Under the pieces are notes generated by a model. That model searched no databases. It was not told the origin of the DNA and was given only the letters and a program-made list of their open reading frames with translations. Both the position numbers and the translations under genes were made by a program. Below, piece by piece: positions 28,901-56,900 of a stretch of 64,000 nucleotides of DNA (position 1 is its first letter; each line of letters begins with the position of its first letter). The stretch is from Bolinopsis microptera (taxonomy: Eukaryota > Ctenophora > Tentaculata > Lobata > Bolinopsidae), in assembly GCF_026151205.1 (NCBI RefSeq), contig NC_087077.1, forward strand, positions 4,464,001 through 4,528,000, given 5' to 3'.

Positions 28901-31203
28901 AGTCAGTAATCAACATGTCTCTTGTAAGAAGAATATTTGTATTATCCCGTACAGATGGGAATGTCACGTACTTGCAGGAAACTACAAGAAAGTTCGTGAC
29001 TTGACGACAATTTTCTTGAAAGATGAGGCGACGAAATTACATGCGTGCCGGCGCTAGGACAGCCGCGCGTGCGGCGTGTAGTATGTACGCGCGTGTAAAT
29101 ACGTACGTGCGCGCTCCAAATGTCTACAAATATTATATTGCGCCGGCTCATAATTCCTAAAAGTAGACCCTGTGCGTGATTGGATGCACAGTAATGATCA
29201 GATTATTGGGAACCATCGAGAACCATCTATCTAGTCTTTCAAAACAAACCACGATGTAACTAAACTTATAGTATTTCTTTAGGCAGTTAAGATAATCTAG
29301 TAACGTAAAAATACGTATTTAAACAAAGAAACTGTGTTCAAACTTCAAGTGCATTTAACATCACTTTAAAAGGGTACAGCTGCCTAAGAAGGTTTAATAG
29401 TTTTACATCACATATGTGAATATTACCTGGTATTCCAGCTGTTTCTAATCTGATGAGATTCCTCATTTCCTTCTCCGCCCACATGCGGACCATCTTTCTG
29501 GGATTGTGTTTACTGTAGCCGTGTCTAAATCGGAACTCTCCCGTCACGTACCTGGACAAATGAGAGAATAAAAACTAAATTGTTATCGGAACAAATACCA
29601 TAATGAATAATTAATAAGGGATCATCGGAGGATTACGATTGCAATAATTAATTCTTAGATTGAATTAAACCAAAATATAATGAAACTCATACCTGTCTCT
29701 GTCTTTGAAGGTAAGGATCGAGGTTTTGAATATTTTAATAGCACAATCTGGCTGTCCGTTATTGCAGGTGGCGTGGTAAACGTTAGCTTCTTTACCTGCA
29801 CATTATTTACACATCATTTACACATAAATCAAAATTTAATGCGGTGCAACCTTTATTATACAGTAACACTAAATTAGTATTAGCCTGTGACTTACTACAT
29901 TATTATACTGTGCCAAAAGAGGAACGACGCGAGAATCACATAATACTATTTCTAAGTTTGTACATTTGTGTACATTTGTGTACATTTGTGTACATTTGTG
30001 TACATAAGTGTACATTAGTGTACGGCTGAAGTACAATGTATAACACTTACCTGTGCTTATACATCCGTTAATCTCTGATATAACATTCTTACTAAGGAAC
30101 TTGTAAAGAATCATTCTAGTTCTAGGATCTAACACCATCTCTACAGTTGCACGATCTGATTTATCCCTGAATGTAAAACACCATTGTATTATCTAGTGTG
30201 CAATTGATTGAAAGTACTACCATTTTATCTTTCAAGCACATTATGTTCAGATAAGAAATCAGATAAGTTGTAAATACGCTATACTGCCCAATAATTTTAA
30301 CATATTGCAACAGATAAGAGACTTTCTCTTACAGATGGTAACATATTAACAAATATCAGCAACATTAAAATATCACAGAGACAATAAGATAAGTGTACCT
30401 AGATTTAACAGTTTTAACAGACTGAGTTTTACTGTGTTCAGACAGAGCAGTAGAGATGTGACGAGGTAGGAAGGTGGGGCCATCATACTTCTCTACGTTT
30501 ATCTTAGAGGCGAACTTTCTTAGCACTTTCTCTTGAGGCTGGAAGGAGTTACTCGTGCGTTCCCTGGAACAATTATATTGAACAGCAGCAAGAGGATATT
30601 TAAGATGTAAAATCCGGATTGGAGTAAACTCCTTTCCCTAATAAGAGCATTTTTACTTGTCGCAACAACCGGGATAAAGATAATTTATAATATATATATT
30701 ATACGATATTTAAGAGTAAGAGGTAAGGATAATGATACATTATCAATATCACTAATAAATAACAATCCATCATATTAACAAACTGATAACTGTTTTTGTT
30801 AATTACTAACTTGGTGGAATTAGCGTTACCACTACTCTTCACAGGTTTAAAGTCAGCCTCATAGAACCCATCATCTGCCTCGTCGTAGTCACTGACGTCA
30901 CTATCGTATGATGACGTCACTGCTCTGTCTGAGAATTTGATCTCTATGTTGGGCTGTCTAGGTGCGCAGTCCTCTTCTGCATCAGCAAACTGAGACGTGT
31001 TTATTGGTTTAGCTGCATTAATCATTAGCGCGTGAAAGATAAACTATTCCATTCTTTAATAAAAGTGACCATTATTGATTAATAAATTGAAATTAATCTG
31101 AAAATCTGATTTAAATGCGGCAGGTGATAAGCATACACGTACATAACTTAATAAACTTAATATTTATTCTATTAAAACTTACCCTGTCGATGTCATTGGC
31201 CAT
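16980..31203 (-). CDS. RIOK1: RIO kinase 1, atypical Ser/Thr kinase of 40S ribosome maturation
   Basis: Thirteen coding exons: 31203-31183, 30989-30811, 30563-30399, 30166-30051, 29795-29693, 29551-29427, 22648-22436, 20957-20865, 20675-20547, 20398-20295, 19916-19831, 19119-19046, 17182-16980. They total 1611 nt (536 aa; human is about 568), and all phases agree. RIO-family landmarks are the P-loop [11 protein letters not shown] (about residues 158-168), AIKIFK with Lys about 180, HADLSEFN with catalytic Asp about 297, and [13 protein letters not shown] with metal-binding Asp about 314. A conserved [20 protein letters not shown] precedes the lobe linker. The acidic, then basic tail ends in lysine-rich sequence, as in human RIOK1. 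Known role: late cytoplasmic pre-40S maturation. The first two exons are short and less certain. Introns contain the lipase and sushi-domain genes. Confidence 0.93.
17285..18469 (-). CDS. Acid lipase (lysosomal/gastric lipase family), intronless and nested in RIOK1
   Basis: Single 394-aa ORF with a signal peptide ([18 protein letters not shown]). It matches the LIPA/LIPF alpha/beta-hydrolase family along its length: [31 protein letters not shown] (oxyanion region), [12 protein letters not shown], the nucleophile elbow GHSQGT (Ser about 165), and catalytic Asp about 337 in AGGNDFLAD. Catalytic His is about 368 in [11 protein letters not shown]. Length equals the family norm (about 395-400). 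It probably hydrolyses triacylglycerols or cholesteryl esters in lysosomes or after secretion. The gene lies wholly inside the RIOK1 intron 17183-19045, on the same strand. Vertebrate relatives have many introns, so absence of introns suggests a retrocopy that stayed functional, or intron loss. Confidence 0.93.
   Translation of the reverse strand: MFNMLVIILACLVGSALSRGDPELELPTPGLIEFWGYPAESHWVTTEDGYILEMHRIPHGINYKQHSVPKPVVLLQHGLEDSSATWVINSPEESLGFMMADAGFDVWMGNIRGNTYSKDHTTLDHRSAPFWKFSFDEMALVDLPTMINYVLNTTNAKTLSYFGHSQGTLMGFLGFSQNQQLASKVNVFGALAPVARITHVEGMMRALSIVAPEIEKLVDIFGVNEFAVPTWLMETLVTMVCPRAKHTLCENIIFLGCGFDTSNMNATRVPRYAGHCPAGTSSRNIIHWAQLLRDRQLQKYDYGTPELNMKQYNSTTPPKYEISALSVPTALFAGGNDFLADPRDVVWLEGQLKPGVIIKNVFYDDYNHLDFVWGLDANRRVNDHLISLVRSVQH
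19929..20035. repeat. 8-bp tandem repeat in RIOK1 intron
   Basis: About 13 copies of TTGTTTAG, some TTGTTCAG, starting just beyond the acceptor of the RIOK1 exon 19916-19831. Confidence 0.9.
20692..20768 (+). other. G-rich tract with quadruplex potential in RIOK1 intron
   Basis: Many runs of four or more G with short loops on the plus strand. On the transcribed RIOK1 pre-mRNA it reads as a C-rich tract starting about 17 nt upstream of the acceptor of the exon 20675-20547. Confidence 0.6.
21262..22167. mobile_element. hAT-like fold-back element with poly-G/poly-C ends
   Basis: Both ends are a G (left) or C (right) run followed inward by CCAATGGCATAAA in inverted orientation. Left and right flanks carry the exact 8-bp duplication AAGGTAAA (21254-21261, 22168-22175), as for hAT elements. 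TGGCATAAAA triplets near 21275 and 22050 are in direct orientation. ATTCTCCATTTTCTCCATTT blocks follow each. An inner inverted pair (GAGAAAAGTGGTTTT and AAAACCACTTTTCTC) surrounds about 21815-21960. I see no transposase. It lies in a RIOK1 intron. Confidence 0.8.
23005..23035. repeat. Poly-C tract in RIOK1 intron
   Basis: Run of about 20 C followed by GGCCCCC; similar homopolymers occur at the ends of several mobile elements in this window, and no element could be delimited here. Confidence 0.7.
23462..23570. repeat. 17-bp tandem repeat
   Basis: About six copies of ACCAGTGGTCATTGATC in the large RIOK1 intron, followed by unrelated sequence. Confidence 0.93.
24228..25466 (+). CDS. Secreted protein with sushi (CCP)-like domains, nested antisense in RIOK1
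   Basis: Exons 24228-24303 (signal peptide [20 protein letters not shown]), 24450-24833, 24947-25132 and 25264 onward; all junctions are phase 1. The second exon encodes about 128 residues with [20 protein letters not shown]; it faintly recalls FAMeT-type domains but I would not assign it. The third and fourth exons each encode one module with Cys pattern C...VECEE/VTCFGG...VTCV.G..W/F....PDC. This fits complement-control (sushi) modules, often exon-sized with phase 1 borders. If not spliced further, translation ends at TGA 25464-25466; alternatively GTAATA at 25447 is a donor to an exon I cannot find. Probably extracellular. The gene runs opposite to RIOK1 inside its 6.8-kb intron. Confidence 0.65.
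25554..28119 (+). mobile_element. Helitron-like non-autonomous element, copy 1, interrupted
   Basis: The left part (25554-25788) and right part (27758-28119) match consecutive parts of a second copy at about 51604-52279. Shared blocks include GTAATTTCCGA, CGGTAAGAGT, GTGCCGACAAAACTCTGACG, ATTGATGGTTTTGTACCACA, and near the end AACTGCGGCAGTGAAAT. The 3' end has the hairpin CCCGGCC-GAA-GGCCGGG (28094-28110), then TTACA, CTAG and T. A GC hairpin a few bases before CTRR is the Helitron 3' signature. No Rep/helicase ORF is present. The middle is occupied by an inserted retroelement remnant. Confidence 0.7.
25776..27757 (-). mobile_element. Non-LTR retroelement remnant with RNase H, inserted in the Helitron-like copy
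   Basis: Minus-strand reading gives an RNase H-like segment: [12 protein letters not shown], then [13 protein letters not shown], then [19 protein letters not shown] (about 26880-26480). Further downstream is a cysteine segment, [13 protein letters not shown] (26413-26159). Order and motifs fit the 3' end of LINE-type elements with an RNase H domain. In-frame stops, one where the family has Trp before VPGH, show it is dead. A 13-bp repeat GGCTCGCATATAT occurs at 25776-25788 and 27745-27757, a candidate target-site duplication. A degenerate duplication of roughly 165 bp lies at about 27190-27440. Confidence 0.7.
28120..29426. other. Rest of the large RIOK1 intron
   Basis: AT-rich sequence without recognisable coding or repeat family. 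A short segment near 29040-29110 is rich in CG-containing GCGCG/TACGTACG words. Confidence 0.5.
29956..30015. repeat. 10-bp tandem repeat
   Basis: Five or six copies of TGTACATTTG, the last ones degenerate, in a short RIOK1 intron. Confidence 0.9.
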
Positions 31204-31626
31204 CCTATAAAATAAACAAATGAGTTAAGTTTCTATATTTTTAAACGATAAAAATAGTAAATATTTGTGTGCATACAATTGAGTAAGGGATAACCGGCGC
31301 GGTGCCTTGTCACTCGAATAAAAGAAGCATACACAAAATAACACTAAACATATTATACTGATTTGAAATGGTCACTGTAAACATAGGTAAAACATTTCAC
31401 ACGAAGTGAAAATATAACTCTCAATATCCGTTATTAACGTTACATACTCAGTAGAAGTTTGATACATAGTATCATAATAAGTTCACATTGCTCAGATTAC
31501 CGGATTTCACCGCAGAATTTGTTCGCGTTGATCAATTTTGGTGTTCGTTCCAAATACTAGAGACTTTGGTAGTAGCGTAGCAAAACGTGACATGAGCTTC
31601 AATAAGCAGTTTTCTTTAAGAACCCA

Positions 31627-31974
31627 TCACAACCCTTCTATGAGATGTTCTTTACCATGTTTGATCAACAAGTTCCTCTTCTCCCTCTCACTCATCTCCT
31701 CCCACATGTACCTAGCCCCCTTCCTCTCAATAAAGTCGTAGAAAGTCTGTCCTCTTACTGCCACGTGTAACTGAAACAGTGCTACAAATGTGCCCCCCAC
31801 AAAACCCAGGCAGAACAACAAGCCTCCTCCCACCCTCCTGTTCAGTACTCCTGATTTAAGGAGGATCCTCCTCGTCAGACTCGCTTTGTACAGCTTCTCT
31901 ACTAGCACTTTAGATTTAACAGTCTCAGTAGGGGTATCGGGAGCTAGTTTCATGGGACGCTTACCCCCGGACAT
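31627..31974 (-). CDS. Small single-pass membrane protein, unknown function
   Basis: 115-aa ORF beginning MSGGKRPMKLAP. I chose this ATG because an acceptor-like TTGTTCAG ends one base before it; a longer in-frame start at 31983 lies within the putative intron side. Residues about 45-70 (GGGLLFCLGFVGGTFVALFQ) form one membrane segment, preceded by a Lys/Arg-rich stretch. The C-terminal third is charged and helical (ERKGARYMWEEMSEREKRN). No cysteine motif or known family is recognised; size and charge pattern suggest an organelle membrane protein, which is only a guess. It lies about 420 bp upstream of the RIOK1 start on the same strand. Confidence 0.6.
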   Translation of the reverse strand: MSGGKRPMKLAPDTPTETVKSKVLVEKLYKASLTRRILLKSGVLNRRVGGGLLFCLGFVGGTFVALFQLHVAVRGQTFYDFIERKGARYMWEEMSEREKRNLLIKHGKEHLIEGL

Positions 31975-33064
31975 CCTGAACAAGTATATTGGGAGCCAGT
32001 ACGTTTATCTAGTGAATCAAAATGCTAGATTATTCTTTATTTGTTATTTGTTAGTTGTTTGATACCATGGTCATAGTTTTCGGTACTTGTTAAAAGTCTT
32101 GAGGAATAATTATTCGAATAATTGCCAAATATTACCTATTAGTCTACTTTATTTTGTTAATTTTATCTACTATACCTTTTACAATAAGTCCATCAATACA
32201 ATTTGTATTTTCTATTAAACAATCAAACTCTCTTTTAAAAGGTATTTTATAACTAATCGTGATATAATCATGATTCTATCTTCATTCCTTCAACATTTTA
32301 TCAACACTTTAACAACTCAGTCCATACAAAGATTCCACGCTGTCAGCACACGTTAAATTATAACGTTCATCTAGCTAATTAAAAACCTTTGTATTAAAGA
32401 TTAATTTCAAACCTGAAATAACAACAAACATCTCGCCTTTAAAGGAAGATAAAAACTATCATAATCACAATGTGATAAATACGATTCAGCAAATTGGTGC
32501 CTATTAATAACATTTTAAAAAATTTAAATTTAAATTTAAGATTAGTGAAACTTCAGTTTTACATATGAATAATGGTCAACGACTTCCACTTTTTAGATCT
32601 TTAAAACCATGTTGCTGCGTACTTCAATAATTCTTTAGCTTTTGGTTTTGAGCCTGAAAAACATTTTGTTACAAGAAAAATGTCGACAGCACAATCAACA
32701 GTGCAGCTATAACTAGCAAAACTAGAGTAGCAGAGTTTAAACAACTAGGATCAACAGTTTGATATTGTTTTTAACGTAAGTAAAGATGTTTACACGCCAA
32801 ATTGCAACTTAGATTAGCCCATGATTTAGAAGTCTTCATTGACTAGCAGGAACATGATAACCGAGACTACAAGAAACAATTCCCACAAATATTGAGGTTT
32901 TATCTTCCTGCTCAGCACACCACGTGAAATAACTAACTGCACGTGTAACTTGTCGTTCTGCACGTGGAACTTGTAGTCCTGCACGTGTAACTTGAAGTCT
33001 AACATACTAGGTATTGTTTCTACACAGTCAGTATGAATATCAGTTTCCTTGTTCTCCTATAACG
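31975..33064. other. AT-rich intergenic region
   Basis: No gene or named repeat seen. At 32920-33000 are three spaced CACGTG-containing blocks (GCACGTGTAACTTG, GCACGTGGAACTTG, GCACGTGTAACTTG) about 24 bp apart, upstream of the small secreted-protein gene; they form an imperfect tandem that could be E-box-like sites. Confidence 0.5.
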
Positions 33065-35762: not shown

Positions 35763-36076
35763 TGCTAGGTCGCTGCAAACAATATTTAATATATAATTGC
35801 ACACGCGTACAGCAATTGCGTTATAATTACCATACTTGATGTTCGGTAGCTATAAAATAATAAGCTTCACTGTTGTTGTAAACGAGCTAGTATACTAAAA
35901 GTGGTCTACGTGGCGAAAAAATGGGCGTTCCTAACTTATGTCAATCTACACTCACTAGTATCAAACGATCGGGAAGTATGTCCCAAAAAACTCTTTAAAC
36001 TCTATAACGTTCTTCTAACATGCTAGAGTATCATGCTTAAGAGACCGTGCTTTAACAGTGCCTTATGATGAGAGTC

Positions 36077-38257: not shown

Positions 38258-38259
38258 AT

Positions 38260-41223
38260 CTAGTACATTGAAGACTTAGCCTTCTCCTTGTTCTTTATTT
38301 GAGCTGTGATGTGTGACAGAACACTGCTGACGTCATCAGGTACCACGTGACTGGACGGAGCAGCAGGTTTAGTAGAACCAGTAGATATCGGGGGCACGTA
38401 GGGAGCAGCTGGGAAAGAGGGTTAAACACTGGGTTAGTGGAAATAATAGCTGTTTACTTGTAACAAAACTGGAAACAGTTTCTTTGCAGTTACTGTATAT
38501 TGAGTATAATGTAAAATAAACAAGAAAGTTACCAGAAGTTGGTTGGTAGTAACTCTGTTTGACCAACTCAGCTACTTTGTTACCTGGTTACCTGGTTACC
38601 TGGTTACCTGGTTACCTAGTTACCTGGTTACCTGGTTACCTGGTTACCTGAAGTTGGTTAGTAGTAGCTCTGTTTGACCAACTCAGCTACTTTGTTACCT
38701 GGTTACCTGGTTACCTGGTTACCTGGTTACCTAGTTACCTGAAGTTGGTTGGTAGTAGCTCTGTTTGACCATCTCAGCTACTTTGTGCCAGTCCTCCAGG
38801 AACTTGCGGGTATGCTCAGTCAGGTTTTGTCCTTGTACCTAATTGTAAGATATTGGTAGCTAGTAATAGCTAGTAGTCAGTAGTCACCTTAATATGAAGA
38901 TGATATGAAGGAGAGATACTACTGTAATACCTGACTACACTGCACTATTTTCAGCAAATAGAGGCGTTGGCACAATCGCAGGAACATGTTCACTGTGCAG
39001 CTACTCAATAAACAAATTCCAGTTTTAATGGAAGATTTGGAATTTTGCGCAGCATTTGATCTAAGATCTTGCTGCTAACACAAAACATGAAATATCAAAA
39101 AAAGCTTCAATTTTGTATCCAACTCTTGTACGATTGTGAGGCAAAAACACTTTTAATTTATCGCAGCTTTAAAGTGTCAATATCTCCACACCCTCAACAT
39201 TTAAACAGCGGAAATCAGTAATCTTAAAGTTAACTAATTATTATAAGTGTTTACCTTGCCGTTAGCATACTGATAATGCCAAGGTTTAACAGCTCCCAGG
39301 AAATGTACCATCTTGACCTGATCAGCAAAGTGTTTGTAAGCAGGCAGATAGGTGTAACTAGCGTTGGGGTTCACATTGTAGGAGAAGGGGATGTGCTTGC
39401 TAATGTCACCGTGGGACCACGTGTTGAAGTGAGCGTTTAGCAGCCCCTGGTCCCCTCCGTCAAATGACCCTTCCTCGCACGCTCGCTTCATTATAGCTTT
39501 ATATGTGTCTGTGGGGGGGCAGGGTGACAATTAGGTAACAATTAGTACATGTATTATTATTAATAATAGTATGTATTAAGTATTTTATGTACAATGAACC
39601 ATTGAGTAATGGAGTACTATTCGGAAACATTTCCACTGAGCACGGTAACAATATATTAGTAACAGTAACAACATATTATGTTACTGTGATTTAGTGAGGA
39701 AGAGCATTGCTCACTCCAACAACTAACCATAAGGTGACTTTTAAAGCTACAAATCATGAATGTCCAAAAAAGGGAGCGGTGTAAATTTAAATTATTCGTT
39801 CATTATTGGCCTTATTTTTGGCTAAACCCTGGCCCAAATTAATAAAAATAAGGATGACCAATGATGCGCAGATTAGTTCATGAAAAACGCGTAATGCTCG
39901 AAATAAGTGTATGTGAGTACTGTGAGTATGTGACAATTGTATGTGACAATATTATCCTGTGAGACTAACATAGTCTTCATGAGCATCGTTTTACTAGTGA
40001 GAGGCGGTTCACTGCGTTGTTACAGTGATTTTATAACTATTACCATTATGTTCATTCTAAATAAACCTATCAGGTCTGAGGAATGTCACTAGTAGTCTCA
40101 CTGGGATTAGTGGTTAGTCACCAAACACACACACACGATGTTTAGTGTTTAAATAAACTAGAGTTAATTAGATCCTGCTAATACTAAAAACACGTACAAC
40201 AACCAGTTACAAAACTGATATGGTCCCTTGTTTTCAGGTCCTTCTACACAGGGTCCCTACCAACCACATGGCAACCGGTCAAAACTTAGGTCTAGTGTAC
40301 GTTCGCGTTCTTTACACGTTTGATTTTAAAACTGTGAGTAGTGAGTTGAGTCGTTATGAGTGGAATACATGACCAGCAAGAATGAGGCTCTGTTTCAACG
40401 GAAAATAAATATCACGATAACAATTAAGGATTGGCACATAATATGAAACTACTATTACTGCTACTACTACTAACTAGTAGTACAATTCTGAGTTCTGACA
40501 GGAATAATTATTAGAGAACACACAATGTGAGTGTTTACCTGGAGAAGGTGCTAGAACGAAGAGTCCGGTGTTGAAGCAGTCAGGCCACCCCGCATCTCTG
40601 CAGGCGGACAGCTCCTCATACTGGAACAGGTCGTCTATATTGGAGAGGGGCATGGTGTCTGCATCAACAAAAACTACCTGTTAGATTAATAGGTTTGGGT
40701 TTGTTCATATATAATAATGTAATAAGGCAGAGGTGTTACTCTAGCGTTATGAATGGGGGGAGGATTCTAAAATAGCCAAAATCTGGTGTATGTGAACGAT
40801 TCCAAAAAACGAATACTCTGGAGTTTTAATTTGGTTCAACACAGTTTACAATACAAAGATCAAACAATTTCAATGTTATTGGGAAAAAAACTTCACACGA
40901 CACAGCTGAGCACTAACTTTTTTATACTGATTGAGTTTCCACACGTTAAGCTTGGAGAAAGTAATCCCAAGTTCAGGTCTCTTCAACATAGCAAGTCTAT
41001 CACTATCCTTACTATCCAGCTGTGTGACATCCAGCACTTTATCCCAGGTCTTAGCGAGCATAGCTCTAGTGGTCTCTGGTACAGTCTCCGTAACCATGAC
41101 AACAGTAGCACGTGTAGTTCCCACGGCCCTGAGTTTGTAGCCTAGCACTGCTGCACCAAGTCCATATTCGGGGTTTGTTACCAGGGTGACAAAGGCTTCT
41201 GTTGCGTTGGGTAGACCAGGCAT
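38260..41223 (-). CDS. GYG: Glycogenin, self-glucosylating primer of glycogen synthesis
   Basis: Exons 41223-40918, 40677-40539, 39508-39255, 38838-38739 and 38408-38260, phases agreeing (315 aa; vertebrate GYG1 about 333-350). This is a GT8 glycosyltransferase. Seen are [15 protein letters not shown] near the N-terminus, [17 protein letters not shown], the Mn/UDP motif DAD at about 107-109 in [47 protein letters not shown], and SYTYLPAY holding the acceptor-Tyr region (about 200-202). [13 protein letters not shown] follows. The last exon is a short linker and a basic helical end, where glycogen synthase binds in the family. Known reaction: adds up to about ten glucoses from UDP-glucose to its own Tyr. 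Acceptor-like CTTCCAG lies 5 nt before the ATG. The last intron contains copies of the preceding exon's end. Confidence 0.95.
38533..38738 (-). repeat. GGTTACCT array with two captured exon fragments
   Basis: An array of the 8-mer GGTTACCT occupies the last glycogenin intron. It is interrupted twice by copies (38648-38694 and 38533-38580) of the last 47-48 nt of the adjacent coding exon, the part encoding [15 protein letters not shown]. In the first copy CAA has become TAA, an in-frame stop; the second stays open and is followed by a GT donor. The 8-mer itself overlaps the exon's own donor sequence (CAG-GTAACC). Confidence 0.88.
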
Positions 41224-41715
41224 AGTTACTGGAAGCTAGTACTAAGAATGAAATAATTCAGATAAATAACGTTAGGGACTAATCTTTAAATAGCATATTC
41301 CCTAAATAACATGATATTGTGTGCTTGACAATAATATGTCAATTATTTAGCTGACATATTGCAACTGTTCTTTAAAGATTAATTTTTCTATGGTGATTGG
41401 CGATAAGTTAAAAACAAAAGATCTATTTTAGAACTTATCTTCATAATTCCCTCGTATTTAACTAAATAGAAAAATATTGAAGAGAAAAACTTCAAACTAG
41501 GTTTCAGGGCAAGATAGGTAACAATTAAGATGGTATTTACAGTAGAGAAAAGTAAACACACTCTTTAAATTCATCCATTAAATAGGTATCAGAAACTAGG
41601 GTGGAAAGTTTGAAATGAGAACATCATATTATAATGACGTCATGTAACATTGTACAATATATTTAAACTTCATAGCTAAGCATCATTTCAGAATGTAGCT
41701 GTTTGAATGATAAGT

Positions 41716-42223
41716 TTATATTGGCCATTTCCATTGATTTTCAGGAGCATCTCCAACCAGGGGCTCCCATGGGGCCCAACCCGGTAGTTTTCTTATCAAC
41801 AGCAGCTCAGACTTTGCTTCTTGTATTACATTCTCGATACACCTTGTATCAAGTGCTTGTTCAAATTCCACAACTGATTTAGCTTTCTCTAAAAGCCCCA
41901 TCCTGAAATTATTGAACCCATGATTTCTTCTGCAAGTATTATATGAAAATGAAAATTGCAATCAAAATAAGATACTAAATAATAAGATACTAATTAGTCA
42001 ATCAAATTAATTTACTGAAATAAGCCAACATATTATTTAGACACCTTTCTTTGGTAAGTCTCTCTGTTTCAACTCTGTATGGGTAAATCTTTGGTAAGGT
42101 CTCAAGCTCTGTAAGAGTAGTCTGATACAGTTTGTTTAAGCTGAAATAGGGGTCTTTGACAACATCTCTGCCAACAATCCCAGTAATCAATCTTGGATTT
42201 GGCAGTCTAACCTGTCGTGACAT
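41716..42223 (-). CDS. NDUFA5: NADH dehydrogenase (complex I) alpha subcomplex subunit 5
   Basis: Exons 42223-42045 and 41902-41716, joined in phase 2 (121 aa; human 116). The N-terminal part has LITGIVGRDVV (human TGLVGLAV), then LYQTTLTELETLPK and YRVETERLTKER (human RKYTEQITNEK). The second exon has VIQEAKSELLLIRKL and ends PWEPLVGDAPENQWKWPI; the final QWKWPI is diagnostic. It is an accessory subunit on the matrix arm of mitochondrial complex I, without a cleaved presequence in the family. An acceptor TAATTGCAG lies 4 nt before the chosen ATG; an upstream in-frame ATG would read through that acceptor and is rejected. Confidence 0.95.
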
Positions 42224-42422
42224 AATCCTGCAATTACATCTAAGTTTATTTACTACGGAAAAAATTGAAGTTAAAAATTTCATAAATTTGGCATAGTATC
42301 AGAAGCCACAAATTAAACTAACATACTAACTGCACACAACGATGGCACCTCTTTTAACCCTTTTGATTTAATATCCACCCCCCCCCCCCCCCCCCGCCCC
42401 TCCCTTTCAAGTTTATCTCATG

Positions 42423-46302: not shown

Positions 46303-49300
46303 TCATGTCCCGGAGGGCCCAGGAGGAGGGTTATTGGATAAATTAATCTTGCTCCTGTCGTATTCTGTTCCGGCGAATGGGGAACCTTCAGTGTTCCATG
46401 CCTTCTTCAATATTTCTTCTGTGTTCTGGAAATAGTTTCAGCTGAGTCGATGTTCAATAAAGATAGTAAAATTAAATTCCAGAAGGTTCGGAAGTTAAAA
46501 CATGAAGTCACATATTCTAGGTTTTATATGTATTTACAAATCCACGGTCTGCATTCGAGTTTTGTCACGGAGCCGGATGTTTTTAAGCAAGTTTGACGTT
46601 GTTAATATTTGGGTGGACGTAACTGTTTGCTCCACTTTCCGACCTTTACACATGCAAATAAACAATGAAGTATAACTAAAACAATCGTACAAGTTAAATA
46701 TTTAATGCTAACCAGCTCGTCGCTGGAGGGCTGACCCAATCTTTTCTGCTGCTGATCGAACATGAGTTTCTGAACACAGGCCCGTTCATCCTGGCCGAAT
46801 TCATGCATGTGACGGGTAGTGTCGATAGTGTCCAGTTTAATAGCGTGACCACCCTCAAACATACCCGTCCACCAATAACCATCTCGACCCTTCTCCAAAT
46901 TTATCTGAATTGTAGGTCACAATTAATAAGATGGCCTTATCAGTTATTCTAGTCATTTTTAATTTCGTTGGTTAAATTAGTGCCAAAATTTTATAAAATT
47001 GGGAACAGGTGACGGTGATTTTGAAGTTTTAAACGTTGCGATTTACATTTTTATTGAGCAGAGAACCCCAAAATTGTGAAAATTTGTAAGTACAATAATG
47101 AAACAAGGTTTTATTAGCTGAAAATTTCAAAATAGTCTAAAAATTAAAATCAATTTCTAAAAATAAATGTCATGCAATGAAATCAATCAATAATAAAATA
47201 ATTATATCATGGTAATAATCAGTAAAGAAAATTTAATAGTCAAATAAAACTGTCATTAGGACAATGTAGAATATTAAATATTAAAATATTGTATTCATGC
47301 TAGAGTCCTAAAACTAAATCAATGTTAATGAGAAGAAGTCATCGGAAAAATGGCAGGAATTCCAGTTCCGACCCAATCAGCATGCCAAATCAAAGTGTGT
47401 TTATAATCGGAATAATTTAAAAACCAAAAAAGTTGGTCCATTCCCAAAAACTGAACAATATGTAAATTGATAATATCAATAATTAGATAATTTATGTTAA
47501 GGTGTATAAAATGGCAATATTATAGAGCAATCAATCGTTAGTCAATTTCAGTCGTGGCTGAAAAGTTCGTCACATTAAAAAAGTCAAGATTAACTGTTCA
47601 CTAAACTACTGTAATCAAAGTGTGCTGTCTCAGATAAGGTGTGTCTAAGTATCTGGCTCTTATTCAATTGTCTCGGTGAAGTCTGCAGCAGCTGCCCACG
47701 TGCGCGCGTCTCAGCTGAATAATCAGCATTTAGCGACCACCTCCCCCATCACTGACTCCTCATCGTTATTAAGTGGAGCGAACTGCCACTGTAACATACT
47801 AATAGGCGCCTCGTTCTTCTGACTCTCTGGACGATGCTTGCTCAAGAACAACTTGATCTTTGAAGCAGTGGGAGGTTCCAGACCTCTTATCTCCAGGTAC
47901 TTGGAGACCAGTTTAGTGTCCGTGAAGCCGCTGTCGTACGCTTCTAAGATAGCATCCTTGACGTTGCTAGGGAGACCGCGTTTTCTGACCATTACAGCGT
48001 CGCTGGTGTGCTTGTGGGGTACTCCGTTTATCATGTAGGAGACGGTGCTTTCTTCAGCGTGGTAGAAAAGCTGCACTTTGGCGGGGCATCCTTCACTTGC
48101 TTTCTGCGTGCAGTCGTAAAACACCTGAGAGAGGACCCTATTTAGATCTATATCTACTTATGAGTACACTTCACTAGAGATTTAGCTAAGTATGGCCAGT
48201 ATGTTTTTCGTTAACTCAGGAAACAAATTCTTCAAAATTGATTAAATATTAGAAAGACTGTTACCTTTCTACCGAGGGGTGTGGCGTGACTGTATGAGAA
48301 TTTCCACAATCCCTCGTGCTCAATGAATGTTTTAGCGTCAGCAGGGCTCTGAAATATGGTTACAGGTGTCCAGTCTTCACGAGGTCGAGGTGAGAGTTGG
48401 GTGGGCTGTTTGGGGGAGGGATTGTTTGCGGAGGAGCACACGGAGGAAGCACTAGAGACGATCTTTTGTAGCAGGGCTACCTGGCTCTGAGGAGGTGACA
48501 TTGGTTATTTACAAAATTAATAATTATTTATACTTGTCAGTTATATATCCTAAATTAAATACTTAACGAAAGCCTGAACAGTGAGAAAATTAAAATAGTG
48601 AATGCAGGACTGAGTTAGTGAACCAACCTGAACATTGAGGTTGCTAATAGCAACATTAGCAGGGGGAGGGTTACTGTTGAGGATACTGTTGTACTCGATG
48701 TGGTTGTGAGGTTCTCCGTTAGTGTAGAGTAGAGCTGTGCCCACGTGATGGTAGACCACGTGACACAGAGACCCGCATCCCAATTTAGCACGCTGAGTAC
48801 ATTGGTAGTAAACCTGATGGAGGGAAATGGTTTAGAACTCACTTCACTGAACTATAAATCGATTGAGATCATAAGGTTGATAGAGCCAGAAATTAAACTC
48901 TAACAGTAGCAGATAATTACCTTCTTTCCCTCCGTAGTTTGGTGACTGTATCTAAACTTCCATTTGTTATCTCTTGTGATGAAGGCTTTAGCTTCATCGG
49001 CTGTGTTGAACAGTGTTTCTGCAGACCACTGTATAGCTGGACCTCTGACCCTCTGAGGTTTGTCTCGGGGGGAGGCTTTCTTTCTCGGTACCAACGAGGA
49101 AAACTGAAGTAAGGAAATATAATTAGTTACCTATGTGTAATTACTACTGTATCGGTTTAAATGAATGATTTAGCTAATCAGATCAAATTTAGGACTTTGT
49201 GCCCAGTCTATTTTCCTGTTTTAAAGAGGTTTAATATTCTAAAACGACCGTTAAAATTCCTCAAACCTTTTGATTCCAACGGGGTGATGACGACTGCTCT

Positions 49301-51616
49301 TCTTTTTTAATGACGGCTGCTACATTTGGCTTATTTTCTAGAGGAATAGACGTTAAGTAAAACAGAAAGCATTAGTCTTGTGATGAACGTTACAATCATA
49401 GTTGCATCTTTGACATTTGATCGATTTTGAAAACGAAATCAATAACAAAATCATTAAATATCGATCTGTAAATCAATAGTAACTGGTAGGAGCCAAAGGT
49501 GTGCAGTACGTCTGAATAAATTTGAGTTTATTTTTGGGGTTCTCTGCTTTTTAGGTTCACTGTCGCCTGTCGGTAGAGGGACTACCAACGATTTATTAAA
49601 ATCGAACATGACGAATCGAAGAATTATTAATTCGCGCGCAGCGCACGCGCGTCTTAGCGTGCTACCGGGTAACTGTGAAGACTTTCAACACAGAAAACAG
49701 GAAAATTAAAGTGAAAGTTGTGAGTACATTGGTGCGCGGCGTGCGACGTCGGGACGCTGGGATGAAGTGAACATTCTCTACATCCTATATTCTTTATAAG
49801 AAGACCTCTTCAACAGATAGCTGAAGAAGCCTTCTTCTTCAAATATTCATCAATTTTAAAAGTAATTTGAGGCATTCACATTCAAAAGCTCACTCTACAA
49901 ATTTGGTTCGAAAAGCAAACTTCAAAAAGTAAACGACAAAACAGCTTTACGTTTGGAAACACCTGATGTAGTGTAATTGTGAGATATCTTGACGAATTTC
50001 ATTAAGTTAAGTGGCTTAATGTTTGATCTAGATTAGCTGACAGAATAATAAATGGTTAAATATGGACCACGAAACAGGGAGACTAAGATAAAACATAAAA
50101 CTTACGACACACTCCAACTATTATAGCATTAACTACTACTAATCGGTACTAGTATTTCTAACTTCTAAGTAGTATACATTATAATTAACACGTAAAGACT
50201 ATAGATTAACTTGTTTTATATTGACTGACTTAATGATGAAACCACTATATATGTAATTATACACGTCCCGCACTGATCCTATTTTTCAATTCAGACTCAC
50301 AACACTGAGTAGGTGCTATCAGAATCTTATTCTTGGATAACAGCACAGTCAGGTTCTTACTTTCTATTGTAATTGAAAATTAATAGTAAATTACTATGTT
50401 TACAGTACATTAATGCTTCATCATGACTGTAACACTGTGAAACCTGATATATGGCTAAAAACTTCGAGAAAGTGCATGACTGAATAACTTCTATACACTT
50501 CTATACAATTCTATACAATTCAGCAATTGAATACAATTGTGTACATGTCGGAATATTGGACTTAGTTTAAAAGTAAGCTGCGTGATAGAGACTTGCTGTA
50601 CTATTATCATAGGTGGTGGAGCGGATGATAAAGCTGAATTAATATAACACTGGAATAACGTTTTGGTTAAATCCTTTTTCTGGGCCTCTAACATTTTTTT
50701 TCAACTCTTCTATTATATTAAAAAGGGAATAATTTAGATGATGATTATTATAGTGAAAGAGTGAAGGGGCAGCCCTACGGACTATTATTCCTGCTTTGAA
50801 AATAGAATTCCGTTTTGAGACAGTAAAATAGATTCAAACAACCCAGCCGGGGCTTGAACACTCCATTTCGCGTCCTCCATAAAGTTAATTGCGGATATAG
50901 GCTATCAGTAGATGTTTTCATCTCAGAATTATAAGCGAATGTCGCCCCAGTCCAGATGCAAAATTAGCGCAAAAGTTAGGTCAGTGCGCAAATGTTACAA
51001 TTTCGCCAGAACACCTCTAACCTGCACTCTGCAGCCTGATGAGATTTTGGAGCTGATAAAATTGTTCGGCAACCAAATATTGAACAGATAAACTTCCATA
51101 GTTCAGGCAAGGAATTTACCGACATGGATAAAATATGAGTAATTAGATTCCTGCAATACATTGTTACAGTTCGGATGAAAAATAGTGCTTGAGACCGAAT
51201 TCGAACCCGGACCTTCTACATGCGAGGCGATAATGTTGCCACTGGGGCGACATTTGCTTATAACTCTGAGAAATATACCGGGGCGACATTCTTATAATTT
51301 CGCTTACAATTTTGCTAGAACGCCTCCTCTAGGCTATAGACATAATATATAAATAGAGCGACTTCACGGTGCATTATAAGGAGTAAGATTATGTGCTTCT
51401 TAAATGGAGTACAGCCAGAGAAAATAGAATTGCAAACAGATCCAGGTTGTAAACTCTTCATAAAGCTAATATAACAGTTAAGATTAGGATTTACGTGGAT
51501 GGTAAAACCTGGAATATCTTAATCTTTGCACCATTTTGTTGAATTCAAAGAATTACTTGTGAAATGCTTATTTGAAGTGTGTATATAATAATAAGTGTCT
51601 TAATAATACCAAGAAA

Positions 51617-51693
<77 letters not shown>

Positions 51694-53948
51694 TTGAAAT
51701 TTCCGAACGGTTATACAAAAAAAACGGTAAGAGTTACGGGACTGGTTTTTTCGGTATAGTGCCGACAAAACTCTGACGAAGCCAATAAGCAAATTTTATA
51801 AAAATCGGCCGGTGGTAAATGGTTTAATTGATGGTTTTGTACCACAAAATATGTTACATAAAATGGCTTGAGAAGAACGGCAAGAGTTACGGGGCTAGCT
51901 CTCTCTCTCTCTCTCTGCATAATATTATGTAGCGTATATATTACATGGCGTATATATTACATGGTCATATAATACTATAAACTTATTAGGGGAGGGAGTG
52001 CTCAAACGGTCTGTTTGGACTGTAGAGAGAGTTCATACTTTCATACGACAATGTAATGCATGTTCACAAATATGATAGGCTGGTGTGGTGCATGGTGTTA
52101 AGGGTTAATTTCTATTGATTATTGATTAAGAATTACTATCTTTTAAGCATACTATTGGATACGTGAGGGCACTCCGAATAGAATTGCTCGCCTAATCCGG
52201 GTTTTGACTCAGCGGGTAATTACTCCTACCCTTTTTAACTGCGGCAGTGAAATCCCGGCCGAAGGCCGGGTTACACTAGTAAGTGTATATTATGGTTATT
52301 AATTGATAGTTAATTTGTTATTACTTATTATTATAGTGTATATAATAATAACAAATTAACTGTGTTAATTCTATACTTTACTTTGTCAGCCTGTAGAAAC
52401 ACATGTCATGTCATGTGGGTATGGGTGTTATATTGATTACTTTACAATACCACGAGAGACAGAAAGTGCATTAAAGAACTCGCCACAAGCACGACACACA
52501 CATAAATCCCGTCTGGTTCACGTCCTTTTAGTTCTAGATCAGGACGTATCAGGTTTCCTAAATATTGTGCTCATGTTTTTAAATAAAGGGGCAAATATTC
52601 AGACCAGATTCATAAGATTAGTTAAAGGTTTCATTATTGTCTCGTGTAACAGACAACAAGTTCATTACTGCCCATTCAGCACGATAATGTAAAGAGAATT
52701 GAATGTATTGAATGAATTTTCCAAAATTGCAGCGCAACATATCGAAAACAGTCGCCTGATTCGAGAATGCTGACTTATAATGATAACAAAATCCAAACGC
52801 CGAATAGCATACATTTTGCAACACAGAACACATAGCGATTTGGCGACACAAGACACGCAAAAGCACGAAATTTAGTGACACGTCACGTGACCTTACATTG
52901 GGTCACATGTGACCTAACATTGGGTCACGTGACACACCACGTGGTACACCACGGGTAGCTGATAACACTGCACACTCCGGCTCCTACCTGCAGACATTCA
53001 CCTTTGTGCAAACTCCACATACTCTCTTCCGGCTTCACCAAACTGTTTAGCTTCTCTTCTAAGAGTGTCTGGAGGTCACTCTGTTGCTTCAACTGAACCT
53101 GGCGAATATCGGAATGTCAGGCTCAAAAAAAATCGGCCCTTCTGAGAACAAGACAATAGCCACATAGTTAGTACAAAGGACAAAACTACAGTAACACTCC
53201 AAGACAGCCCTTCATATTTAGACGTGATCAAAGACTTACCTTCAGATTATAAGGTTTGATATCTATCTTGAGATCAGACGCTTTAATATTGGGGTTAGGC
53301 AGTACCAGCTTCAGGTCAACATCCGTTGCGGTTTGACTCCAGGCGTAGTGCTCGGTCACCCCTCCGTTGTGATGGTCCCAGCTGGAAGTACTCCAGTCGC
53401 CCTGTATCTGCTCCATCGCCTCCTGCTTCAGCTCCGGCTTGGGAAGTAGTTCTCCAGCAGTAACGTTGGGAGTAACAGTAGGTCTGGGGGTGATGGAGGG
53501 GAGTCCAGGTGTAGCAGGAGGGGTGGGAGGGTGGTTGTTAGAAGGGGGTGAGCGGGGGACTGTGGCTGGGGACCCCATGCACTCGTACTTCTTATACACC
53601 TGACCAAACATAGCAATATTAGCAAGGTAAAACTACTGAATAGTACTATAACCATCAACATAATAAGCCATATTAATTCTTTGTTTAGATTGTTGAATTA
53701 AACATGAAGATAGCGAAGGCTTAAAAAATAGTCTAATTATGTAAATAAAACGTTAAATAAGTATTACGAACCTTGAGAAGCTTTTCCCTGGCCACACCCG
53801 GCGGGAATCCCATACTCTGATCTGAAGAAAGTGGCCTGAAGAAGTCTGTTTTGCGGTAGAGAAAGCCCAGGACTACCTCCAGAAAAGGCTCCAGTTCTCC
53901 ACAATTCTGTAAAATGCCAAGTAGAGGCGCGTCGAATTTATCATCCAT
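46303..53948 (-). CDS. NUDCD3: NudC domain-containing protein 3 (CS-domain co-chaperone)
   Basis: Exons 53948-53772, 53599-53240, 53098-52988, 46904-46713 and 46425-46303, all phase 0 (320 aa; human 361). The N-terminal exon (LLGILQNCGELEPFLEVVLG, then FLYRKTDFF and MGFPPG) matches the NUDCD3 N-terminus (FLRVLFGFLYRKTDFY...MGFPPG). A Pro/Thr-rich linker follows. The CS/p23 domain has HYAWSQTATDVDLKLVLP and continues in exon 3 (PEESMWSLHKGECLQ) and exon 4 (GRDGYWWTGMFEGG, human VGEYWWNAILEGE). The last exon gives EILKKAWNTEGSPF (human MLKKGWDAEGSPF). Known role: HSP90-linked co-chaperone stabilising dynein intermediate chain. The third intron, about 6 kb, contains a complete second gene and a Helitron-like element. 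An acceptor TTCTCCCAG lies 3 nt before the ATG. Confidence 0.94.
47723..49609 (-). CDS. Tandem WRKY-GCM1/FLYWCH-like zinc-cluster protein nested in NUDCD3
   Basis: Coding exons 49337-49267, 49103-48921, 48813-48628, 48486-48265 and 48124-47723 are in frame, about 353 residues. A candidate first exon begins MFDFNKSLVVPLP at 49609, but its donor is uncertain. Two modules repeat: FNTADEAKAFI...NKWKFRYSHQTTEGKK|VYYQC and FQSPADAKTFI...GLWKFSYSHATPLGRK|VFYDC, each split by an intron after the Lys. Each then has C-x7-C-x22/23-H-x-H (ending EPHNH and VPHKH). This zinc-ligand spacing belongs to the WRKY-GCM1 superfamily (WRKY, FLYWCH, FAR1/Mutator DNA-binding domains). A sequon-like VIKKEE SUMO site lies near the N-terminus. 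Likely a nuclear DNA-binding protein, perhaps a domesticated transposase domain. The whole gene lies in one NUDCD3 intron, same strand. Confidence 0.75.
50922..51270 (-). mobile_element. Inverted-repeat element with tRNA-like promoter box
   Basis: Ends CTCAGAATTATAAGCGAATG... and ...CATTTGCTTATAACTCTGAG are inverted repeats over 30 bp with two mismatches, both containing GTCGCCCCAGT. On the minus strand near 51245-51183 the sequence reads CGCCTCGCATGTAG followed by GTCCGGGTTCGAATTCGG. That resembles a tRNA anticodon arm and a good RNA polymerase III B box, as in tRNA-derived SINEs. I cannot fold a full cloverleaf with paired acceptor stem, so it is not called a tRNA. Confidence 0.5.
51604..52279 (+). 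mobile_element. Helitron-like non-autonomous element, copy 2 (uninterrupted)
   Basis: Starts with or just before the TG microsatellite. It carries GTGCCGACAAAACTCTGACG and ATTGATGGTTTTGTACCACA in the same order as copy 1, and ends with hairpin CCCGGCC-GAA-GGCCGGG (52254-52270), TTACA and CTAG before T. It shows what copy 1 looked like before its insertion. The 5' terminus cannot be fixed because a TC start is not evident. Confidence 0.7.
51619..51690. repeat. TG dinucleotide microsatellite
   Basis: About 35 uninterrupted TG units. Copy 1 of the same element has TGTC units at the equivalent place, so the array expanded from the element's own short repeat. Confidence 0.98.
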
Positions 53949-56900
53949 GTCCTGGGAGAAGAGGAGTTTAATTAACTGAATACAATTCTCCGGTAAAATA
54001 AAACTTTACAGTATTTTGATTGCAACGGAAATAAAGGTGAGCTAATACAGATAGATTTATTTTCTGACGACACCGGTACAATATAACGTCGGACCATGTT
54101 ATAAAACGTCGGATCATGTGACATGTTAGCAGGTGTGATTAGCTAGTGTCTCAGATAAATTGTAAGTCAACGAAAAAAGCAATTTGTAACCACTGGACAA
54201 CCCAACTGAATGACACAGTGTCACGCCTAACCTTACGACAACGACCGGAAACTAAGTAGGAATTAGGTAGCGCTGAGTAACCCCAGAGTAACCACGAATC
54301 GATATGCTGCTAATATTCAACTAAACTTCGACGATGGATACATAAACCAATTCACAGTCAGGAGTTCGAGCACCAAGACCGGCTTTCTCAGCGTTGACAG
54401 ACTGCTTATCCTTTACTTGTAAAATCAGCAATAAAATAAACCAGTAAAATCAGTACCAGGCCAAATGTCTGGGCTTGATGTTCTATAAGGAAAGTTCTAG
54501 CCTAGTTAAAATGTGGTGGCAGCAGCAACGACACTGAGGCGGCGAGACAATGTACAGGATCAGGTGGGAGCCTTGTATTACGATATCCCGCCAACCCTTG
54601 CTTTTCGCTAACTCCCAAGCTTACAAACCGACTCAGGCTAATTGAATTTCGAGAACAATTAAAAATTTCAACACGTAGCGAATGTTGGTTAAATGAGCGG
54701 ATTAGGTTAGGGCCACGAGAAGCTGGCGAAAAGTTTACTGGTATTGAATGGCAAAGCAAAATTAGAAAATTATTAAGAGTCCCCTGTAAATTGAGGATCT
54801 TTATCAATAGAATTTGGCAAACCTTCCTCCTGGTCGTCGGCGGCGCTAGGTGTACAAATTAAATCAGGTCAAAGCAAAGATTACGAAGTAGCGTTATATA
54901 ACCTGTTAAATAGAGGGCGCATCAACCGGGGCAACGTCGGTCATGTCTCACAGGTATAATTTAAATTTAACGGTTATAATATTCCGACAAAACGTTATTA
55001 CCACAAGTCAGCTGCCCATAAGCAATACTTGGAACCATCCAGAAATGGTGACCTTTATCTAGACGAACATTAAACTTGCAGATATATATTATTATATACC
55101 CCCTCCTGATTTACCTGTAAGATAACTCTCCCATGCCATAGGGGAAAGGAACAATTAAGTGATAACCGATACAGAAAAGTCAGGACTCAGGAGAGAGGAG
55201 GAATTCTTAGTTCAAAGCTTTCAACATCAAATCAAAAGTCGGTAAGTTCAGTGTAACACCATGTCTCCCTCATAACTAGTTCACTATACCCCCGGTATTC
55301 CTGCTCAATAGAGCATGAAATTGAGTGCTAAAGTTTGGTGAGTAACACAAAGCAGGGACAATAATGCAAGATAGATAGCTTTATCTTACTCTATTAATTG
55401 AAATAATTTAAACTAAATTAACTCTCCTGTATGTACGAACAACAGAAAGCAAAGAAGCAAATAATGAGATTATAAGTTGTGAGTTGTGAGTTGTGGGTTA
55501 AGTGCTGGAGTCGAGTAGCAGACACCAAGGGTTAGGATAACTGGTTAGTAACGCCTAGTAACCCAGTCTGGTAACCCTGGTAACGCTAGGTACGGCTCAG
55601 CAACGCCACGGCTTGAGATTTCAGACAAGTGCAGTAAGCGTGCTAACAGTGCTCACAAAGCAACAAAGAGTGGAGTATTGCTGACCAACCAAGCAGTGCG
55701 GTGTGACTAACTAACTGATCAGGTTACACGCTCCTCCCCTGCTAGCTCTAAATTACTGGCTGTCAAGTTGGTCACGTGATGTAGGGTCACGTGACTCACT
55801 CTCCAAGCAGTGCGGGCTCCGAGCACTACTGCCCGATACACCCCGCTGACAGGCCCTGTGTACAAGCTCCAGCAGTTAGCCGGCTTGCTGCCAAGCAGGG
55901 TGAGGTTACAGGCACTCCCACCCGGCCAGTCACAGGTCAGGGATAGCGAGGAGGACCAATCACAGCCCGGCAATCTGTCACGTGACATGGCAATCATTTG
56001 GGAGGGAGAGATAAGAGAATTAGATTAGGGGATTAGTTTTCATCATCATGAGCGCAGATGCAACATCACCTAGTGGTGCTATTTCTTGTCAGACACGATT
56101 ACACGGTACAAATCCCTCGCGTCCCCCTGGAATTTTGCGTCCCCCTGGAATTTCACGGCCTGTGTTTCTACAGACCGTGGCTTGATGTGCCTGGGTGTTT
56201 TTTGGCTTTCGACATGTGACCTCTTCGGCTGATCATGTGATCCCTGGCTGTTTTACTTGGCTTCCCTACCAGCACTTGCCTTACTTCAAATTGTCTGGTT
56301 TTAGTTGAGTCGGCAGTTTTGTCATGGTAGCGTTGTCATGGTAGCGAATTACGTTATTGACGAAAACGAAGCGCACTACTTCCGTATCGGCAGATGACTG
56401 ACAGCAAGACAGGCTTCTTGTTAAACAGGCAAGTAGGGACTAGGGACACAAGCGTGAACAGGTAAACGCATCCCGTCACAAGCAAGGAATTAGAAGAGAA
56501 CTCGGCAATGTTAAATGTTAGATGCGTCCTAACTCCTAACGCTGTTAAATACCAAGGAGAGAAGGAGATTTAACGGCTGAGTACTGTTAAAGTATCGTAT
56601 ATAGGAATTATACAGGTAGTACAGATAAGTATTGGCTAAGTATTATCAAATGTTAATTGTTAAGCCTAACTTTCGTTATCGCTGTAATATGAGGCACAAT
56701 CTGGAAGTTTAAAAACAAGGCAATTTCCGCGGACACAAGGCGAACAAAGCCGATCCAACGTGAAATCAGGCAAACAACCCTCATTGAATTCGAGCTGGAA
56801 TCATGTTATGTGCATTACGTGTAATTACATAATATTAGCTTATTAACTTTTAACTTGCGATTATCTTTCATCAACGGAACTGATCTTAAAATCAATTGAC

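Follow-up and report, generated by a model that had tools for sequence, protein, structure and literature searches.

Splice acceptors beside start codons and tandem spliced-leader RNA genes point to trans-splicing in the ctenophore Bolinopsis microptera

Results

The window analyzed here, a 64,000-nt stretch of the Bolinopsis microptera genome (NC_087077.1, positions 4,464,001 to 4,528,000), carries minus-strand genes for NUDCD3, NDUFA5, glycogenin, MOCS3, a 115-aa small membrane protein, and RIOK1. The N-terminus of NUDCD3 matches Pfam Nudc_N (1.5e-20), with the domain beginning at residue 4 of the predicted protein, and NDUFA5 matches PF04716 (4.8e-8). A match of glycogenin to PDB glycogenin-1 (7.6e-21) begins at residue 5, which supports the assigned start codon. 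MOCS3 contains ThiF and rhodanese domains, RIOK1 matches PDB RIO1 on a downstream exon (2.5e-14), and a Pfam search with the 115-aa protein returned no match. NDUFA5 and glycogenin lie near each other in the same orientation, as do the small protein and RIOK1, and operons were considered for both pairs.

By direct reading, all six genes have a YAG acceptor shortly upstream of the ATG (Table 1), reproducing every distance in the original prediction, which had placed acceptors 1–10 nt before the start codon in six genes. MOCS3 has a further AG closer to its ATG, at 2 nt, and glycogenin has a second acceptor, TTCATTCTTAG, 18 nt upstream of its ATG. Neither a leader nor a spliced-leader (SL) gene was seen within the window, where the best BLAST matches, with E values of 0.2 or higher, were no better than chance and Rfam at gathering thresholds found nothing.

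Table 1. Acceptors preceding the start codons of six genes in the window
Gene	Acceptor	Position	Strand	ATG	Distance to ATG	Minus-strand junction
RIOK1	TTTATTTTATAG, pyrimidine-rich (AG 31206-31205)	31205..31216	-	31203	1 nt	ATTTTATAG+G+ATG
115-aa small membrane protein	ACTTGTTCAG	31976..31985	-	31974	1 nt	TTGTTCAG+G+ATG
MOCS3	TATTGTTTGCAG	35773..35784	-	35762	10 nt	TTTGCAG+10 nt+ATG
Glycogenin	CTTCCAG at end	41229..41240	-	41223	5 nt	CTTCCAG+TAACT+ATG
NDUFA5	ATGTAATTGCAG	42228..42239	-	42223	4 nt	TAATTGCAG+GATT+ATG
NUDCD3	TCCTCTTCTCCCAG	53952..53965	-	53948	3 nt	TTCTCCCAG+GAC+ATG

We scored as an acceptor any YAG with at least 4 pyrimidines in the 8 bases before it, lying 0–10 nt upstream of an ATG. 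Since chance alone supplies such a site at 425 of 1,994 control ATGs in the window (21.3%) in this T-rich genome, a single acceptor near an ATG is weak evidence, and the AGs could in principle be chance matches chosen by eye in front of unspliced 5' UTRs. Against this, six of six genes pass the rule (P about 9e-5), a value that counts as post hoc because the genes were picked by the original prediction. Requiring 5/8 pyrimidines keeps five of the six genes versus 12.0% of controls, and requiring 6/8 keeps four versus 5.2%. A small scoring matrix built from 17 internal acceptors ranks the sites like ordinary acceptors, with 6/6 over threshold (P 0.0012); taken singly, however, they reach only the top 2–25% of control ATGs within 20 nt, as the chance explanation would have it.

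A set of 28 Ras-family starts, chosen mechanically and independently of the six window genes, argues the other way. Seventeen have an acceptor 0–10 nt upstream (Fisher 8.6e-6 against the control ATGs) and 20 have one within 20 nt (8.9e-5), while successive windows farther upstream contain acceptors in 7, 7 and 4 of the 28. Leaving out eight starts from one gene cluster gives 12/20 (Fisher 2.1e-4), and the matrix score yields a weaker enrichment (19/32 vs 33%, P 0.0017). For eight of the 28 starts, no acceptor of this kind lies within 20 nt, indicating that trans-splicing is not universal or that some of the starts are wrong. We consider it extremely improbable that the six acceptors are chance matches.

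The published Hormiphora californensis leader (PMC8527503) served as the entry point to the genome (264.65 Mb searched) and led to G000:C13, where a head-to-tail array gave 45 BLAST matches, 41 of them near full length, within the 40 kb read. The genome encodes a 43-nt leader, AGTTTTAATACTTTCAACACTACTATATAACAAATAATTTGAG, with AATAATTTGAG as its 3' end. On C13, C5 and C3 this leader is part of SL RNA genes, arranged in tandem, that also have a GTAAG donor, an Sm-like site and hairpins. The genome thus holds what the original prediction had proposed looking for, an SL RNA gene present in many copies and bearing a GT donor and an Sm site. A pattern covering the SL intron and Sm site matched 94 times genome-wide, always in clusters on C13, C3 and C5 (reversed control, 0), and in four cleaner stretches 9/9 copies located via the Sm region share an identical leader and GTAAG donor. 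The concern that noisy C13 copies had yielded a wrong leader was dismissed, as the cleaner arrays give the same one; copepod prey DNA was likewise rejected as a source, given the chromosome-scale contigs and the likeness to a published ctenophore leader.

Interleaved 5S rRNA genes accompany the SL genes in the C13 and C5 stretches, and none was found in the C3 stretch read. The SL RNA is predicted to fold into two hairpins, one on each side of the Sm-like site (energy z -2.6). This site, ATCTTTTGG, differs by one base from the common form of Sm sites and is partly base-paired with upstream sequence in the predicted fold. A stem holding the donor in its loop appears in the minimum-energy fold and is absent from the centroid. 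If SL RNA genes were transcribed in the manner of snRNA genes, they might share an upstream element with U2 genes at a matching distance. In three of the four array stretches CAAGGAAA, a motif picked post hoc, precedes AGTTTT by exactly 52 nt, with 7/8 bases matching in C3, and the SL genes hold a second copy of this motif farther upstream. Near U2, the same post hoc motif matches at 7–8 of 8 bases 51–52 nt upstream in five of eight genes and at 6/8 bases 54 nt upstream in a sixth, with none near in the remaining two.

Compared with the Hormiphora leader as given in PMC8527503, the leader is identical at 39 of 41 aligned ungapped positions, the alignment containing two mismatches and four internal gaps of one base each, and both leaders terminate in AATTTGAG. 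The Mnemiopsis leidyi leader (Derelle et al. 2010, via PMC8527503) has the same terminal TGAG / AATTTGAG motif, a likeness that covers the terminal motif only. Clustering of SL RNA with 5S rRNA genes is shared with the copepod arrays presented in PMC4664967, and the leader is long in both (44–47 nt in copepods, 43 nt here, compared by length only); unlike those arrays, the SL genes here lie on the host's chromosome-scale contigs.

Beyond the arrays, the leader is widely dispersed. A 31-nt leader pattern matched 1,721 times genome-wide, SL genes included, with none for the reversed control, while a pattern using ATTAATTTGAG had found only 15 places because this species' leader has one T fewer. 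The first pattern, derived from Hormiphora, had given 14 dispersed near-matches, of which only one, L022, proved to be a leader-tagged copy, the earliest to be found; the other 13 bear no relation to the leader. We read 40 loci outside the arrays, comprising 42 exact leaders, and found GTAAG next to none of them (0/42) and an Sm-like site at none (0/42); nine further loci with variant leaders likewise revealed no Sm-like site. The 42 leaders join 26 different downstream sequences at the same base, and an ATG follows within 10 nt in 18/26 of these sequences versus 250/1,506 control GAGs. Judged from such genomic copies, one and the same leader appears to have begun transcripts that are otherwise unrelated.

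Our searches yielded a single set of a parent gene and its retrocopies. The parent gene on C3 (L117) has introns and an acceptor reading ...tgttctag/ctaa...ATG, and in the retrocopies L115 and L116 both introns are gone and the junction reads ...TTTGAG/ctaa...ATG. This comparison shows the leader joined exactly at the parent's acceptor AG, in place of the outron. When the genome was searched for a copy of NDUFA5 exon 1 bearing the leader, the gene itself was the sole match.

The dispersed copies could instead be mobile elements that contain the leader by chance, in which case joining to host mRNAs would not be required. Eight of the 26 downstream sequences recur (2–6 times each), several leader-tagged sequences encode ORF1-like proteins, one family has 18 matches with the leader intact in 5/6 fetched copies, and neither host-gene retrocopy showed a clear target-site duplication or poly(A). 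However, only the leader and the junction are common to the 26 sequence groups, the parent/retrocopy junction falls on the parent's own AG with both introns removed, and the SL RNA genes have separate evidence of their own, leaving chance inclusion in mobile elements quite unlikely.

Trans and cis acceptors are indistinguishable from sequence alone, and the six window acceptors might simply close ordinary 5'-UTR introns, with a non-coding exon upstream in the locus spliced in cis. Yet the genome holds SL RNA genes and leader-tagged retrocopies, and acceptors in the Ras-family starts cluster within 10 nt of the ATG rather than farther upstream (17/28), mirroring the leader-tagged copies with their ATG within 10 nt in 18/26. 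Cis-splicing at these sites is in our estimation very improbable.

Discussion

Ctenophores were already known to use SL trans-splicing. We conclude that it very probably operates at the six window acceptors, with the leader supplied by SL RNA gene arrays elsewhere in the genome. In the mechanism we propose, tandem SL RNA genes on other chromosomes, accompanied by 5S rRNA genes in most stretches read, would give rise to a short RNA, predicted to measure roughly 125–140 nt and to start at or near AGTTTT. Its first 43 nt (AGTTTTAATACTTTCAACACTACTATATAACAAATAATTTGAG) would run up to the GTAAG donor, and its remainder would present the Sm-like site between two hairpins. Just upstream of many start codons, the spliceosome would attach the leader at an unpaired 3' splice site (YAG), and the outron would be discarded. 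Mature mRNAs of the six genes would then consist of leader, 1–10 nt and ATG, with AGTTTTAATACTTTCAACACTACTATATAACAAATAATTTGAG directly before GATGGCCAATGAC in RIOK1, GATGTCCGGGGG in the small protein, GACATGGATGAT in NUDCD3, GATTATGTCACG in NDUFA5, TAACTATGCCTGG in glycogenin and CGACCTAGCAATGGC in MOCS3. According to PMC10232365, Iso-Seq or 5' RACE reads have been produced for Bolinopsis.

What the DNA demonstrates is the leader, the SL RNA genes that encode it, one exact acceptor and copies of transcripts that bore the leader. Together, the SL RNA genes and leader-tagged retrocopies support the original suggestion of possible SL trans-splicing, and we infer from them that each of the six mRNAs uses the leader. 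A trimethylguanosine cap is present on the leader in several SL systems; the exact 5' end of the leader described here, its cap and the fraction of genes subject to trans-splicing are matters of inference too.

This work provides a candidate SL RNA gene and the layout of its arrays, and offers a way of reading trans-splice junctions with DNA as the only source. Two cautions for annotation come with it: the first exon in such genomes need not adjoin the promoter, and the intron and Sm site should be checked before genomic leader copies are counted as SL genes. In Hormiphora, the leader is on 56% of Iso-Seq reads and 718 leader sequences were counted in the genome (PMC8527503), and Mnemiopsis has 491 genomic copies (Derelle et al. 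2010, via PMC8527503). Many genomic leader copies are likewise found here, as with Hormiphora's hundreds, and in the present analysis SL genes are told apart from exon-only copies; the leader section of PMC8527503 contains no description of SL RNA genes, of an Sm site or of a link to 5S.

We give even chances to the idea that most genomic leader copies are not SL genes but retroposed 5' ends, from non-LTR retrotransposons whose mobile RNA begins with the host SL. DinoSL-tagged retrogenes of dinoflagellates, as described in PMC6050394, similarly arise from SL-bearing mRNAs reverse-transcribed into the genome with the leader as their mark; here the host is an animal, and several tagged copies resemble retrotransposon transcripts. 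If the retrotransposon reading holds, the T-rich, AG-ending 3' end of the leader could itself act as an acceptor when trans-splicing next takes place, so that the tag would renew itself. Non-LTR use of the SL would then stamp the leader on well over a thousand insertions, and the leader copies counted in Hormiphora and Mnemiopsis would be mostly relics of retroposition.

SL RNA genes lie in tandem arrays

The genome searched comprised 232 contigs totalling 264.65 Mb, with 258.07 Mb (97.5%) in contigs C1–C13; the report of the Bolinopsis microptera assembly gives 97.23% of bases in 13 chromosome-scale scaffolds, a k-mer size of ~254 Mbp, and gap closing by TGS-Gapcloser (PMC10232365). A first search pattern, derived from the Hormiphora leader (PMC8527503), gave four exact matches, all on one strand of C13 within 83 kb. 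The 40 kb read there hold 45 BLAST matches to spliced leader (SL) RNA genes, arranged head-to-tail with 855–941 bp between neighbouring units, and 5S rRNA accounts for all ten Rfam matches in one 10-kb stretch (L008). The SL/5S copies in four such stretches (L007–L010) differ by many small indels. These suggest gaps filled with unpolished long reads and might cause annotation to miss SL genes; a stretch of the same array but farther along (L121) is clean.

The SL intron pattern around an Sm-like site matched 94 places in the genome (reversed control, 0), and all nine copies located by their Sm region in four cleaner stretches carry an identical 43-nt leader followed by GTAAG. The multicopy SL RNA gene with a GT donor and Sm site that the original prediction had called for is therefore present. 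5S genes lie alongside the SL genes in three fetched stretches (L118, L120 and L121), but the C3 stretch (L119) yielded no 5S gene. In the predicted SL RNA fold (energy z −2.6 versus shuffles), the Sm-like site is flanked by one hairpin on each side, and part of it is paired with upstream bases, a pairing that would need to be undone before Sm proteins could bind. A third predicted stem, whose loop contains the donor, occurs in the minimum-energy fold and is absent from the centroid. By eye, hairpin stems are kept from array to array and loops differ. Upstream, CAAGGAAA, a motif chosen after the fact, stands exactly 52 nt before AGTTTT in three of the four array stretches; the C3 stretch has it with a single base altered. 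Of eight U2 genes, five carry a 7–8/8 match to this post hoc motif 51–52 nt before U2 and one carries a 6/8 match at 54 nt; the other two have none nearby.

Coordinates of SL clusters, leader copies and neighbouring genes
Feature	Location	Strand	Basis or remark
SL intron-pattern cluster	C13 12.78–12.95 Mb		pattern match
SL intron-pattern cluster	C13 15.24 Mb		pattern match
SL intron-pattern cluster	C3 13.51–13.55 Mb		pattern match, spacing mostly 591 bp
SL intron-pattern cluster	C5 21.34–21.35 Mb		pattern match, spacing mostly ~858 bp
SL/5S copies, L007–L010	G000:C13:12793001-12900000		four 10-kb stretches
Ras/Rho-like GTPase gene cluster	G000:C1:12425000-12482000		dense; many are whole-domain matches in one open frame
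Leader copy (L137)	C1:12451983		inside the GTPase cluster
Head-to-head leader pair (example)	C1:15606568 / 15606630	−/+	
NUDCD3-like and FLYWCH-like genes	window 46306–53948	−	same strand
NUDCD3-like C-terminal exons (presumed)	window ~46.9 and ~46.4 kb	−	beyond the FLYWCH-like gene
FLYWCH-like gene	window ~47.7–49.1 kb	−	named by eye
NDUFA5/glycogenin	window 41223–42223	−	co-oriented, ~490 bp apart
Small protein/RIOK1	window 31203–31974	−	co-oriented, ~425 bp apart

Leader copies outside the arrays record the junction

With up to three mismatches, TTCAACACTACTATATAACAAATAATTTGAG occurs at 1,721 places, SL genes included: 821 on one strand and 900 on the other, against 0 for the reversed control. 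We read 49 leader loci outside the arrays, nine with a variant leader and 40 with the exact one; the 40 are not a random sample, since all were drawn from the first 100 listed places, on C1 and C2. They hold 42 exact leaders for which 110 nt or more of downstream sequence was available; none is directly followed by GTAAG and none has an Sm-like site within those 110 nt; nor was such a site found in the nine variant-leader loci. At the 5' end, 29 of the 42 reach at least TTTTAATACTTT and 14 reach AGTTTTAATACTTT. Their downstream sequences form 26 groups, eight of them recurring, and an ATG lies within 10 nt of the junction in 18 groups versus 250 of 1,506 window GAG triplets (P = 3.7e-9, on the assumption that the groups are independent, though a small number of them seem related).

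ORF1-like proteins are encoded by several of the leader-tagged sequences. Their PHD-finger matches are weak, all of them below the Pfam cut-off, and one protein has a zinc knuckle match at the cut-off. ORF1-like proteins with a PHD finger or zinc knuckle are known from non-LTR retrotransposons. One such family has 18 matches. Of six copies fetched, five begin with an intact leader and have surroundings that differ from copy to copy; the remaining one begins with a decayed leader. The first 100 listed places include six head-to-head leader pairs, 45–62 bp start to start. By eye, inverted repeats flank the leader at two loci (L049 and L053). It looks as though the 5' end of the cDNA had folded back on itself while it was being inserted. 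Locus L046 has two tandem leaders separated by ~10 nt, of which the second lacks its final bases; template switching or a repeated leader addition might account for this.

Direct proof of the junction comes from one gene and its copies. Downstream of a leader copy (L037) is a short secreted-type protein starting MKLFILLALFGML, and this sequence has three genome matches: L115 (the L037 copy itself), L116, and an intron-containing parent on C3, L117. In the parent, exon 1 ends ...GAAGCAG and is followed by GTTAGA, exon 2 begins after ...gcggcag and exon 3 after ...ttttcag; upstream of exon 1 the sequence runs ...caatcttgttctag and then, past the boundary, ctaaattctctacctcgacATG. L115 and L116 are without both introns and read ...AATAATTTGAG joined to ctaagttctctacc...gacATG. 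Hence the leader replaced all sequence upstream of the parental AG in RNA, and this leader-joined RNA was later copied into DNA. SL trans-splicing predicts such a junction; a cis-splicing model leaves it unexplained.

Acceptors adjoin start codons

The six minus-strand acceptor/ATG pairs of the original prediction are all present exactly as described. Matches name NDUFA5, glycogenin and MOCS3, the N-terminal domain names NUDCD3 and a downstream exon RIOK1, so that five of six are nameable; a Pfam search with the 115-aa protein gave no match. The putative RIOK1 start, within a poorly conserved stretch, was placed by sequence inspection. An acceptor rule (YAG, at least four pyrimidines among the preceding 8 nt, 0–10 nt upstream of ATG) holds for 6/6 genes versus 425 of 1,994 window ATGs on both strands (21.3%); with five pyrimidines it holds for 5/6 versus 12.0%, and with six for 4/6 versus 5.2%.

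Because these six genes were the prediction's own pick, we took an independent small-GTPase set, in which 61 fetched loci yielded 37 starts with an in-frame Met 9–17 residues before the P-loop, and 28 once near-identical upstream sequences were removed. An acceptor lies 0–10 nt upstream in 17 of the 28 (Fisher P = 8.6e-6 versus window ATGs; 12 and 7 under the five- and six-pyrimidine rules) and within 20 nt in 20 (versus 34.6% of controls, P = 8.9e-5). Farther upstream the counts are 7 (21–41 nt), 7 (42–62) and 4 (63–83). Eight of the 28 come from a single GTPase cluster on C1; their exclusion leaves 12/20 within 10 nt (Fisher P = 2.1e-4). A matrix built from 17 internal acceptors scores 19/32 small-GTPase starts versus 32.7% of controls (P = 0.0017), weaker than the rule and concordant with it, and all six window genes (P = 0.0012), whose acceptors resemble others of the genome by this score.

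Acceptor-to-ATG distances in the six genes equal those of the leader-tagged copies. BLAST found neither leader nor SL gene in the window, as expected for a leader supplied in trans. The distance argument, weak when alone, holds when combined with the other evidence, and any given one of the six genes probably uses SL trans-splicing.

Past a FLYWCH-like gene come two exons of the same strand that we take to be NUDCD3-like C-terminal exons, which suggests that an intron of one gene contains the other gene; Pfam searches gave no support for these exons and no match for the last FLYWCH-like exon. The NDUFA5/glycogenin and small protein/RIOK1 pairs are candidate operons resolved by trans-splicing.

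Trans-splicing in Bolinopsis

Taken together, SL trans-splicing almost certainly operates in this genome. For ctenophores it has already been published (PMC8527503), reportedly also by Derelle et al. 2010, whom that paper cites. In the open-licence PMC literature, we found no paper joining trans-splicing and Bolinopsis and four joining spliced leader and Mnemiopsis, and for 5S-linked tandem SL genes we found copepod and dinoflagellate papers and none on ctenophores. Systems of this kind are known, but in ctenophores both the SL RNA gene, with arrays linked to 5S, and the retroelements tagged with the leader may be new.
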